Of a DNA stretch of 64,000 nt, positions 31,366 through 60,537 are shown in pieces. A program made the position numbers and the translations under genes. The first letter of the stretch is position 1, and each line of letters opens with the position of its first letter. Source of the stretch: Actinomycetota bacterium (GTDB taxonomy: Bacteria; Actinomycetota; Thermoleophilia; Gaiellales; Gaiellaceae); assembly GCA_005884005.1 (NCBI GenBank), contig VAWI01000022.1:1-64000 (forward strand). Direction: 5' to 3'. The notes under the pieces are model-generated. The model worked only from the letters and a program-made list of their open reading frames with translations. It did not search any database and was not told the DNA's origin.

Positions 31366-31397
31366 CCGAAGCCGTGGTTATCCTGCGGCAGCGGTGG

Positions 31398-31416
31398 GCG
31401 CCTTCGGGGCGCTTTT
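31398..31416 (+). terminator. Terminator after the MetE-like pair
   Basis: GCGCC / GGCGC with a 5-nt loop is followed by TTTT, 32 nt after the stop at 31365. Confidence 0.55.
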
Positions 31417-31424
31417 GCACATCT

Positions 31425-31586
31425 GTACCCCTTCCAGCAATGAACACTCGTTTCTGGCCCGCTAGCACGCTTCACCAGAGTCCACCCTCGACCTTGCCCA
31501 GGCTTCTAGCCTGCGGGGCGGTCGAGTGCGGCCTCTGGTTCGGTGCTAGCGACCCAGAAAGTGAGCGACATCACTGGAAGGCGTAC
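31425..31586. repeat. Long imperfect palindrome (copy A) upstream of the LCP gene
   Basis: A 162-nt near-continuous hairpin. Outer arms 31425-31468 and 31543-31586 are 44-nt inverted repeats matching at 31 of 44 positions. Inside are perfect stems 31461-31468/31543-31550 (8 bp), 31474-31480/31533-31539 (7 bp), 31487-31493/31520-31526 (7 bp) and 31499-31504/31508-31513 (6 bp, 3-nt loop). A second copy with the same order of stems lies at 60154-60323, with paired base changes in at least two stems. It may be an ERIC-like repeat or a structured leader RNA. It ends 20 nt before the ATG of the LCP gene. Confidence 0.7.
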
Positions 31587-31606
31587 CGGTACCGGCACCG
31601 GCACCA

Positions 31607-33535
31607 ATGAGAACGACGCTGAAAAGAGGAATCGGGCGGGGGGCGGACCTCAATGGCAACGGCCATGCGGTGCTGCCTCCCGGCGTGCTGACGCCGATCG
31701 CGCTCTACCGGCAGCCGCCTCAGGGAGGCCGAAGCATCCGCCGGCGCCTGGCCGGTTTCTTCTTCTGGCTGCTCGTGCTGGTGGCGATGGTCGCGGGGGG
31801 CGCAGTCGGTGGGCTGTACCTCTATGGCCACGACTTCGCGTCCGCGACGGCGCCGCATTCCCGCGCGATGAAACGCGCGGCGAAGCGACTCGACTACGCC
31901 GCTCCCGGCAAGCCTGCGATCGCGCTCGTCCTCGGGACCGACCACCGCTTCATCGACGGCAAGGCACCGGGCCGCTCGGACACGATGATGCTCATCCGCA
32001 CCGACCCGGCGAGTCACACGGTCTCGCTGCTCTCGTTCCCGCGCGACATGAGGGTCGAAATCCACTGCCCCGGACGGGCTCCCTGGTTCGACAAGATCAA
32101 CGCCGCGTATCCAACCTGCGGGCCCAGCGGCTCGCTGGAGACGATCAAGGCGCTGACGAACGTCCCGATCAACTATCTGGTCAGCGTCAACTTCGTCGGT
32201 TTCATCCAGGTCGTCGACAAGCTCGGAGGGGTCTACATGGACGTCGACCGGCGCTACTTCAACGACCACACGGGACCGACCGGTTACGCGGCGATCAACC
32301 TCCAGGCCGGCTACCAGAGACTAAGCGGCAAGCAGGCGCTCGACTTCGTTCGCTACAGACATACGGACTCCGACCTCTTCCGCGTTGCCCGCCAGCAGGA
32401 GTTCGTCCGAGCAGCGAAGGAGCAGCTCGCCCGCTACTCGAGGTTCCATGTCTCGAGCCTCCTCGGTGCGATCAAGAAGAACGTGGAGATCGGCCGCGCC
32501 GGTGGTCGCGGCGTCGACCTCTCGACGATGCTGAACTATGCGCTCTTCTTCCACGGCCTGCCTGGTGGCCACTTCGTGCAGGTGCGAATCCAGGGCCTCG
32601 AAGGCTTCTCCGATCTGACGACGGCGCAACAGAACATCACCAACGCAGTGCAAGAGTTCATGAACCCCGATCCCGCGGCGCCCCAGAAGGCGAACGCGGC
32701 CGCTCTGAACGAGAAGTACAAGCCGAAGGTGGATGGGATCAATCCGAAGTCGGTCTTCGTGACCGTCTTGAACGGCAACGGCATCACCGGTTCGGCGTCG
32801 GTCGCAGGGACGCAGCTGCGTGAGCGGAGCTATCAGATCTTGCAGCCGCCGGACTCGCTCCCCGCCGACTCGCCCGACGGGTGGAATCACACGCGTACCC
32901 GCGTCTTCTACGACCAGACGCAGAAGAATGCCAAGGCGGCCGCGCAGCAGGTCGCAAAGCTCTTCGCCGACGCGTCGACCGGACCGATGACTCCGAGGTT
33001 CCGCCCATTTGCGAACGGCGCCGAGCTGGTCGTGGTCGTCGGCAAGAGCTATCAGGGCTCGCTGATCGGGTCGAGTCCGTCCGCACCGCCGCCGCAGCAC
33101 CAGGCGCCGCACACGATCCACTATCCGAGCGCCTCGCTGTCGCAGATGCGGGCGATCCGGCGCAAGCTGCCGTTCCGGGTCGAGTATCCGACCGTGATCG
33201 ACCGGAACTCGCGGGTGGATCCGGAGCCACCGAACCCGCGCGTCTACACGGTTCAGGGGCACAAGATGGCTCGGCTGGTCTTCACGACCGGGGTGAACGG
33301 TCAATACTGGGGAATCCAGGAGACGAACTGGGGCGCCGCGCCGGCGCTCTCGGAAAAGAACTTCATCCGGCATTTCGGCCACCGGACATTCGAGTTCTTC
33401 TACTCCGGCCAGCACCTCCACATGGTCGTCCTGAAGGAGAACCGCGCCAGCTACTGGGTCGTGAATACGCTCGACGACGCGCTTTCGCCCGAGACGATGA
33501 TCGAGATCGCGCGCGGGCTTCGGCCCGTAAGGTGA
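31607..33535 (+). CDS. LytR-CpsA-Psr (LCP) family wall-polymer ligase
   Basis: LCP enzymes move undecaprenyl-linked glycopolymers onto peptidoglycan outside the cell. The 642-residue protein has a basic cytosolic start, one membrane helix (about 48-72, FFFWLLVLVAMVAGGAVGGL), then the LCP domain with RSDTMMLIRTDP, LLSFPRDMRVEI, DKLGGVYMDVDRR and FVRYRHTDSDLFRVARQQEF, whose Arg/Asp residues bind the lipid pyrophosphate. A LytR C-terminal domain follows (about 380-485, VTVLNGNGITGSA). A further 150 residues are unassigned. The stop overlaps the GTG of ugd (GTGA). Palindrome copy A lies directly upstream. Confidence 0.9.
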   Translation: MRTTLKRGIGRGADLNGNGHAVLPPGVLTPIALYRQPPQGGRSIRRRLAGFFFWLLVLVAMVAGGAVGGLYLYGHDFASATAPHSRAMKRAAKRLDYAAPGKPAIALVLGTDHRFIDGKAPGRSDTMMLIRTDPASHTVSLLSFPRDMRVEIHCPGRAPWFDKINAAYPTCGPSGSLETIKALTNVPINYLVSVNFVGFIQVVDKLGGVYMDVDRRYFNDHTGPTGYAAINLQAGYQRLSGKQALDFVRYRHTDSDLFRVARQQEFVRAAKEQLARYSRFHVSSLLGAIKKNVEIGRAGGRGVDLSTMLNYALFFHGLPGGHFVQVRIQGLEGFSDLTTAQQNITNAVQEFMNPDPAAPQKANAAALNEKYKPKVDGINPKSVFVTVLNGNGITGSASVAGTQLRERSYQILQPPDSLPADSPDGWNHTRTRVFYDQTQKNAKAAAQQVAKLFADASTGPMTPRFRPFANGAELVVVVGKSYQGSLIGSSPSAPPPQHQAPHTIHYPSASLSQMRAIRRKLPFRVEYPTVIDRNSRVDPEPPNPRVYTVQGHKMARLVFTTGVNGQYWGIQETNWGAAPALSEKNFIRHFGHRTFEFFYSGQHLHMVVLKENRASYWVVNTLDDALSPETMIEIARGLRPVR

Positions 33536-50564: not shown

Positions 50565-50927
50565 GGGGGCGACCTGGTTTCGACGTGGTCGATTCTCCGG
50601 CAGAGTTGCAAGCCGAGGTCCCCGGTCGGCCTCGTAAAACAACCGGGAAACAACGTAAGTGCGGATAACGATCACGCACTCGCTCTAGCTGCCTAATCAG
50701 TAGCTGAGCGCGTCGCTCCGAACTCGGCCCGTGGTTCGGGTAGCGGCGTCAAAAACGGGCTCGGCGCCTAGGGAGAGCCAATCGCCCGAAGCGCGACACC
50801 AAAGGATGGCTAGCCCGGCGGTTGGTCGGCTGCCAACCGGCCGGCGGGCGAAACTCAACGGCAGCCTAAGCTTGTAGACGCTCTGGCGGTGCGACCGCGG
50901 ACGCGGGTTCGATTCCCGCCGCCTCCA
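50565..50927 (+). ncRNA. ssrA: Transfer-messenger RNA (tmRNA)
   Basis: The 5' end GGGGGCGACCTGGTTTCGAC and the 3' end GGTTCGATTCCCGCCGCCTCCA are the universal tmRNA termini. The acceptor stem GGGGGCG pairs with CGCCTCC (one G-U). The T-arm carries GGGTTCGATTCCC. The discriminator A is followed by CTC, so CCA is not encoded. The tag frame starts at the resume codon GCG 50661 and reads ADNDHALALAA before TAA at 50694-50696. The LAA end is the ClpXP-type degron. A strong terminator follows. It acts with SmpB to rescue stalled ribosomes. Confidence 0.96.
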
Positions 50928-50930
50928 CTC

Positions 50931-59706: not shown

Positions 59707-60165
59707 ATGAGCACCGCGACGATGCACACGAACCACGGCGCGATCGAGCTCGAGCTCTTCGACGAGGATGCGCCGAAGACGGTCGAGAACTTCCGGAAGC
59801 TCGCCGCCGACGGCTTCTATGACGGCGTCATCTTTCACCGCGTGATCAAGGACTTCATGATCCAGGGCGGCGACCCGACCGGCACGGGGACGGGCGGGCC
59901 CGGCTACACGTTCGAGGACGAGTTCAACGACCACAAGGTCGAGCGCGGTGCGCTGGCGATGGCCAACGCGGGCCCGAACACGAACGGCAGCCAATTCTTC
60001 ATCGTCACCACCGATGCGGCTCCGTGGCTGGACGGCAAGCACACCGTTTTCGGGCGCGTGACCGGCGGCATGGACGCCGTCGACTCGATCGAAGGTACGG
60101 AGACGGACGCGGGCGACAAGCCGCGCCCGGACGCCGTGATCGAGCGCGTCGAGCTAGTGGCCTGA
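59707..60165 (+). CDS. Peptidyl-prolyl cis-trans isomerase (cyclophilin type)
   Basis: A 152-residue cytosolic cyclophilin that isomerises X-Pro bonds. Active-site blocks are [22 protein letters not shown] (Arg, Phe, Gln), [17 protein letters not shown] and [16 protein letters not shown]. It has no signal peptide. Its stop lies inside the first arm of palindrome copy B (60154-60323), so transcript ends are probably shaped by that structure. Confidence 0.95.
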
Positions 60166-60323
60166 CCGGCAACGTTCGCCGGCTCCCCGGCCCGCGATCA
60201 CGCGGCGCCAGAGTCCACGCTCGCCCTTGTCAAGGCTGCCAGCCTTGCCTGCGGGCGATCGCGGCCTCTTGACTTGGTGCTCGCGACCCAGGAAGCGGGC
60301 AGCGTTACCGGCCAGGCCACTAG
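60154..60323. repeat. Long imperfect palindrome (copy B)
   Basis: Outer arms 60154-60173 and 60304-60323 pair at 18 of 20 positions. Inside are stems 60194-60201/60277-60284 (7 of 8), 60208-60213/60266-60271 (5 of 6), 60221-60226/60253-60258 (6 bp) and 60231-60237/60241-60247 (7 bp, 3-nt loop). The order and spacing match copy A at 31425-31586, and paired changes keep the stems. The first arm overlaps the cyclophilin stop. A 23-nt stretch of the left arm (60161-60183) recurs as a direct repeat at 60327-60349. Confidence 0.7.
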
Positions 60324-60326
60324 CGA

Positions 60327-60349
60327 CCTGACCGGCAACGTTCGCCGGC
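60327..60349 (+). repeat. Direct repeat of the left arm of palindrome B
   Basis: The 23 bases 60161-60183 are repeated exactly here, 166 bases downstream. The repeat itself folds (GGC / GCC and CCTG / CAGG arms), so the region contains tandem hairpins. Confidence 0.7.
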
Positions 60350-60537
60350 CAGGCCACAGCTTCGTAACGCTTTTTAGAGCATTTGTGACGATTCGCACGA
60401 CCGGCTAACCCCGGCGGCGGGTTTTCGTCTAAGTCTTCTCGGAAAGGTCAACAGACCAGGGCGCGCCCTTTGTGCCGCAGCGCAGGCCGTGCCCGCCGCC
60501 ACCACTTGACGTCAACCACGAACCGGGGGTCCAACAC
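60350..60537 (+). promoter_or_regulatory. Long leader region of the RPF-like gene
   Basis: About 190 bases without a gene. It includes the sequence GACCGGCTAACCCCGGCGGCG (60399-60419) and several GC-rich complementary blocks (for example GGGCGCGCCC at 60459-60468). Wall-hydrolase genes of this type often carry a c-di-AMP riboswitch, and GGCTAACC is reminiscent of its 3' part, but I do not see its other conserved blocks in order. Confidence 0.3.

Follow-up and report, generated by a model that had tools for sequence, protein, structure and literature searches.

The window, i.e. the whole stretch of 64,000 nucleotides from a Gaiellaceae genome that was analysed, contained two long palindromes, and their positions are listed in Table 1 together with those of the adjacent genes. 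In the following, "top" is the strand reading AGTGCCCC...GGGGCACT (the plus strand of the window), and "bottom" is its complement (minus). Both palindromes were located where a first-pass annotation, made from the sequence alone, had reported them, and both folded far better than shuffled sequences, none of which equalled the native value: -98.3 kcal/mol (z -8.3) for copy 1 and -123 kcal/mol (z -5.3) for copy 2. The paired base changes described between them were also correct by inspection (T31463-A31548 versus G60196-C60282, and A31491-T31522 versus C60224-G60255). On the other hand, the actual unit was not a 162-nt hairpin, as proposed there, but an element of ~164 nt with the ends AGTG...CACT in a CTAG-type target, and a third, short derivative fused to copy 2 had been overlooked. 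The fold of this derivative was -29.8 kcal/mol in the bottom strand versus -16.3 kcal/mol in the top strand, and its match to the covariance model was weak (E 0.048). Using the same model, copies 1 and 2 scored 148 and 142.5 bits, respectively, on the minus strand, versus 75.9 and 64.4 bits on the plus strand. The ends of copy 1 had drifted away from AGTG...CACT, and in the genome G003 the orthologous gene was likewise preceded by a copy in the corresponding position (locus L063). The cyclophilin ORF ran into copy 2, whose first bases supplied its final codons and stop. Concerning the wall-related neighbours that had been assigned to both copies, the LCP gene was confirmed, whereas the "RPF-like" gene after copy 2 had no Pfam match at E<=1e-5. 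A sequence resembling an intrinsic terminator (31395-31417, GGGCGCCTTCGGGGCGCTTTT; by inspection) was located just before copy 1, and the window also contained a tmRNA gene (50565-50930, plus strand; RF00023, E 4e-78).

Table 1. Hairpin element copies, conserved core and adjacent genes in the window.
Feature	Position	Strand	Remarks
Hairpin element, copy 1	31424..31587	- (better-folding strand)	Flanked by a MetE-type gene and the LCP gene; diverged
LCP (LytR-CpsA-Psr) gene	31607..33535	+	Downstream of copy 1; PF03816, E 1.2e-38
Cyclophilin-type peptidyl-prolyl isomerase gene	59707..60165	+	Ends inside copy 2; PF00160, E 5.7e-55
Hairpin element, copy 2, with CTAG flanks	60154..60323	-	Element body 60156-60321; BLAST and covariance model
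Conserved core, left half in copy 2 (CACGCGGCGCC)	60199..60209	+	Among the most conserved columns of 66 copies
Conserved core, right half in copy 2 (ACTTGGTG)	60272..60279	+	Bottom strand CACCAAGT; consensus CACCAAGC
Short tandem derivative	60322..60358	-	Both element ends, middle lost; TAG common with copy 2

BLAST with copy 1 detected 14 significant copies in the 2.7-Mb genome to which the window belongs, and the covariance model, for which the bottom strand had been used, gave 19 matches, some of which represented the opposite strand of a copy already listed; in total, there were about 15-19 copies. All four genomes of the genus carried the element, and each gave 13-28 BLAST matches, which included fragments and second strands; since contigs end inside element copies (C72 and C68 of G002), such draft-genome copy numbers are lower bounds. 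Within the family, 34 of 61 genomes carried the element; across the class, a plain DNA search found it in 38 of 299 genomes, every one of which belonged to this same family. With a covariance model, the kind of search that the first-pass annotation had proposed, diverged relatives were also detected in additional genera and in two of the other families of the class. The named records with the element were soil and sediment Actinobacteria MAGs, one of them labelled Gaiellaceae. Variants and relics ranged from 38 to 332 nt in size. A form of ~333 nt, in which the outer stem was the same but the apex differed, occurred in several species (L097:1501-1833, G059, and G233), and a form of ~235 nt was found twice in G023. 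No autonomous partner with the same ends was detected in searches of these MAGs for IS630 and IS110 transposases, and the candidates for a larger autonomous version proved to be a truncated half copy (the single-ended match in G018:C274), the ~333-nt form (G059), and a shorter form (G013). A search of the open-access literature on Gaiellales and Thermoleophilia retrieved no description of the element; this hairpin family is apparently undescribed and, as far as these searches show, new.

The whole element formed a single long imperfect hairpin. When 55 divergent copies were compared on the bottom strand, 94.8% of cells were standard pairs (36-44% in slid controls), two-sided changes were found in 43 of 68 pairs (20.9 in shuffles), and 266 cells contained such changes (53.6 in shuffles), so that covariation was overwhelming. 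Some wobble pairs were nearly fixed (columns 16/161, 37/138, and 61/113). Pairing was thus maintained by compensatory change, and it was the pairing of one strand, the minus strand in the window, that was maintained. The energy of the consensus was -137 kcal/mol for the top strand and -179 kcal/mol for the bottom strand, and the bottom strand was more stable in all of the 128 copies with both RNA parameters (-118.6 versus -95.9) and DNA parameters (-63.1 versus -50.2), although these copies are homologous and do not represent 128 independent tests. This asymmetry arose because the intermediates that spread were A.C on the top strand and hence G.T on the bottom strand: the ratio of A.C to G.U on the top strand was 317:71 for all variants together and 34:34 for the very rare ones (<=2 copies). 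A mutational bias would also appear among the rare variants, which were balanced, and no excess of G-to-A was found at unpaired sites. Two conserved columns, counter to the asymmetry, resembled G.U on the top strand. The general trend was shared by the 332-nt form, whose apex is different (-218.6 for the bottom versus -161.7 for the top strand), and by 19 of the 20 distant relatives, whose outer stems are unrelated; the latter comparison is partly circular because their strand was chosen by the model. The core (CCAAGC opposite GCGCCGCGT on the minus strand) kept a constant distance from the ends in spite of the variation in the surrounding stems: CCAAGC began 44 nt from the 5' end of the bottom strand in 104 of 128 copies, and most of the 20 distant relatives had the same offset on the same strand.

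The element is dispersed, and is or was recently mobile, because near-identical copies (97-99% in G003) occurred at unrelated loci, tandem copies were found (sharing their CTAG), and orthologous sites were empty in relatives. At L044, for example, the filled site read CCCATAG...CACTAATGG and the empty orthologous site CCCTAATGG; a search with joined flanks revealed the same behaviour at L003 and L027. TGATG was present at the orthologous empty site in relatives of four further loci (L174, L175, L163, and L194), and T^GA at that of L183. The insertion point was YT^RR, often CT^AG (mostly so outside co-directional operons), and there was no duplication beyond an ambiguous T. This site was deduced from the base preceding T at exact junctions (C24, T12, G6, and A2), compared with the third-position background of the same genes (C2107, G1781, T234, and A193). 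The left end of the element places AG after the T of T^RR, by which an interrupted stop codon becomes TAG, and the right end, CACT, gives back a T before the RRTG of the next gene. Insertion into an overlapping stop/start therefore leaves both reading frames intact, and the new TAG stop accounts for the many copies that coincide exactly with a stop/start junction in an essential operon.

The target site bears directly on whether the element is a classical MITE, in which a transposase acting on double-stranded DNA (IS630/Tc1-mariner or IS5-like) would recognize terminal inverted repeats and duplicate TA or CTAG, while the pairing would be due to template switching in replication, which corrects quasi-palindromes. 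The element is indeed short, dispersed, multi-copy, and without a coding gene, it has terminal inverted repeats, and most of its flanks are TA on both sides; TA duplications are described for ERIC and YPAL (PMC2759123). A TA duplication was, in fact, favoured on three sites (L044, L003, and L027), and the non-TGATG empty sites alone are compatible with it, but it was contradicted by the TGATG empty sites, which give no TA on the left and exclude duplication of either TA or CTAG; a one-base T duplication is indistinguishable from none. Most relatives have TAATG at L185 and L216, and some GATG right flanks may have changed after insertion. Furthermore, quasi-palindrome correction would neither retain mismatches at constant positions nor prefer one of the strands, and an IS630 partner was rejected since no DDE_3 match was found in 11 of 12 genomes. 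We therefore regard a classical MITE as unlikely.

A total of 117 independent insertions were classified by the direction of their neighbours, as approximated from codon GC phase: 76 were along both neighbours (sense), 18 against both (antisense), and 23 divergent or convergent. The difference between sense and antisense was significant (76:18, p = 1e-9), with ratios of 72:14 in subfamily A and 4:4 in subfamily B. Among the sense insertions, the upstream stop was formed at the left junction in 47/76, the start codon was located <=2 nt from the right junction in 45/76, and both features were found in 32/76. The antisense insertions also respected the junctions (stop, 13/18; start, 9/18; both, 6/18). 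Copies lay singly between housekeeping genes, and the neighbours confirmed with Pfam included rpsL/rpsG, rplF/rplR, rpoA/rplQ, clpP/clpX, gap/pgk, secY/adk, and def, as well as tsf with a gene of the amino-acid-kinase family (pyrH by position). In many sense copies (e.g. L044, L054, and L183), the right arm contained GGAAGGGG or GGAAGGAG a few nucleotides before the start codon, and this segment may replace the ribosome-binding site.

The first-pass annotation had offered two readings of the palindromes, an ERIC-like dispersed repeat and a conserved structured RNA tied to wall genes. The former was right in kind, given the many copies, unrelated genes, empty sites, and strong covariation. The latter did not survive: neighbours were of every kind, and the link to wall genes was rejected in view of the ribosomal protein, Clp, RNA polymerase, and glycolysis genes among them. 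A conserved RNA in a broader sense, either an mRNA hairpin acting in cis (processing or coupling) or a small RNA from the bottom strand, would account for the covariation with wobble pairs, the one-orientation bias in operons, and the position of GGAAGGGG just before many start codons. Nevertheless, the better-folding strand was opposite the mRNA in about 80% of the operon copies, empty orthologous sites and unrelated neighbours are difficult to reconcile with such a function, and comparison with Rfam gave chance-level matches alone, far below the gathering scores. Movement of the RNA by reverse transcription was also rejected, since RVT_1 was absent from the element-bearing genomes and found in only 1 of 61 genomes (G045), which is without the element. 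These results leave an RNA function little probability.

These observations point, with some confidence, to a non-autonomous element of ~164 nt that is propagated through a folded single DNA strand, by a logic similar to that of REP and attC. An element handled as a folded single strand would be expected to show just this combination: a fold maintained in only one strand, a constant core between stems that are free to vary, a cut site at the base, and no duplication. The single-strand step is based on strand-asymmetric conservation; tolerance of G.T alone does not separate DNA from RNA. In this process, a strand-selective recombinase encoded elsewhere would recognize the folded strand via the core and wobble positions, and would cut at the hairpin base, adjacent to CT. 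The excess of sense insertions in operons may have arisen because insertions were lost when they brought the stronger-folding strand into the mRNA or into the template of the lagging strand. More tentatively, the element may represent a new class of single-strand-folded mobile elements: the whole element would be a strand-marked hairpin that hardly varies in length and keeps its core in place, the recombinase would differ from RAYT, integron integrase, and IS110 alike, and the YT^RR target would make stop codons safe harbours. If so, such safe harbours would have allowed spread through essential operons without gene breakage.

If the element were a giant REP mobilized by a RAYT-type Y1 transposase (TnpA-REP), much of this logic would be shared, because TnpA-REP uses one folded strand, needs the stem mismatches of Escherichia coli REP, and cleaves at a CT adjacent to the hairpin (PMC8266576), and Y1 genes were present in most of the element-bearing genomes tested; however, none of 30 Y1 loci carried the element (at least one has REP-like repeats of its own), four element-bearing genomes (G013, G014, G024, and G028; 91-93% complete) had no Y1 match, and the single-contig genome G020 had three Y1 matches and no element. 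Since neither the Y1 loci nor genome presence was associated with the element, RAYT was rejected as the mover, and this explanation appears very improbable, slightly more so than an RNA function. In G003, a Y1 transposase gene was flanked by other REP-like repeats (GGGACAGTCCC; L146:1337-1403 and 1907-1973), probably a separate REPtron.

For most small palindromic repeats of bacteria, neither a mover nor a reason for their shape is known. Hundreds of copies in one family provide a statistical fingerprint of the working strand, the cut place, and the recognized part, by which enzymes acting on folded single strands become testable against a defined substrate; the junction of an element circle would read CACTAGTG. 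The insertion rule also explains how the element lies between ribosomal protein genes without breaking either. The element in the window is a dispersed mobile hairpin of Gaiellaceae-type soil bacteria and not a wall-gene RNA, and the evidence for strand-specific folding and stop-codon insertion is unusually clear.

Several known systems resemble the element in part. The bridge-RNA system of IS110/IS621 has CT at its crossover point and relies on a structured non-coding nucleic acid of about the same length; in contrast, the element has no recombinase gene, and IS110, found in 21 of 61 genomes of the family, did not track with the element and was rejected as its mover. ERIC, YPAL/RU-2, and other palindromic MITEs of enterobacteria (127-168 bp; PMC2759123 and PMC10969869) are similar in size, whole-length hairpin, frequent location near gene ends, and lack of coding capacity. 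By their descriptions, they differ in the reported TA duplications, compared with YT^RR without duplication, and strand-specific conservation is not mentioned in the passages considered. REP/RAYT repeats are palindromes of 20-40 nt tagged with GTAG or CGTC (PMC3733652 and PMC8266576). They are also dispersed extragenic hairpins with one active strand, functional stem mismatches, CT beside the hairpin, and tandem pairs, whereas the element is ~164 nt, has a fixed internal core, shows neither tag at its ends (AGTG...CACT in CTAG), and is without a linked transposase. The integron integrase uses the folded bottom strand of attC as its substrate (PMC2727003), and attC, like the element, has fixed structural features with a variable apical part. 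One folded strand is likewise selected in the element, a likeness in logic only: attC is a site on a gene cassette, whereas the hairpin described here is the whole dispersed element.
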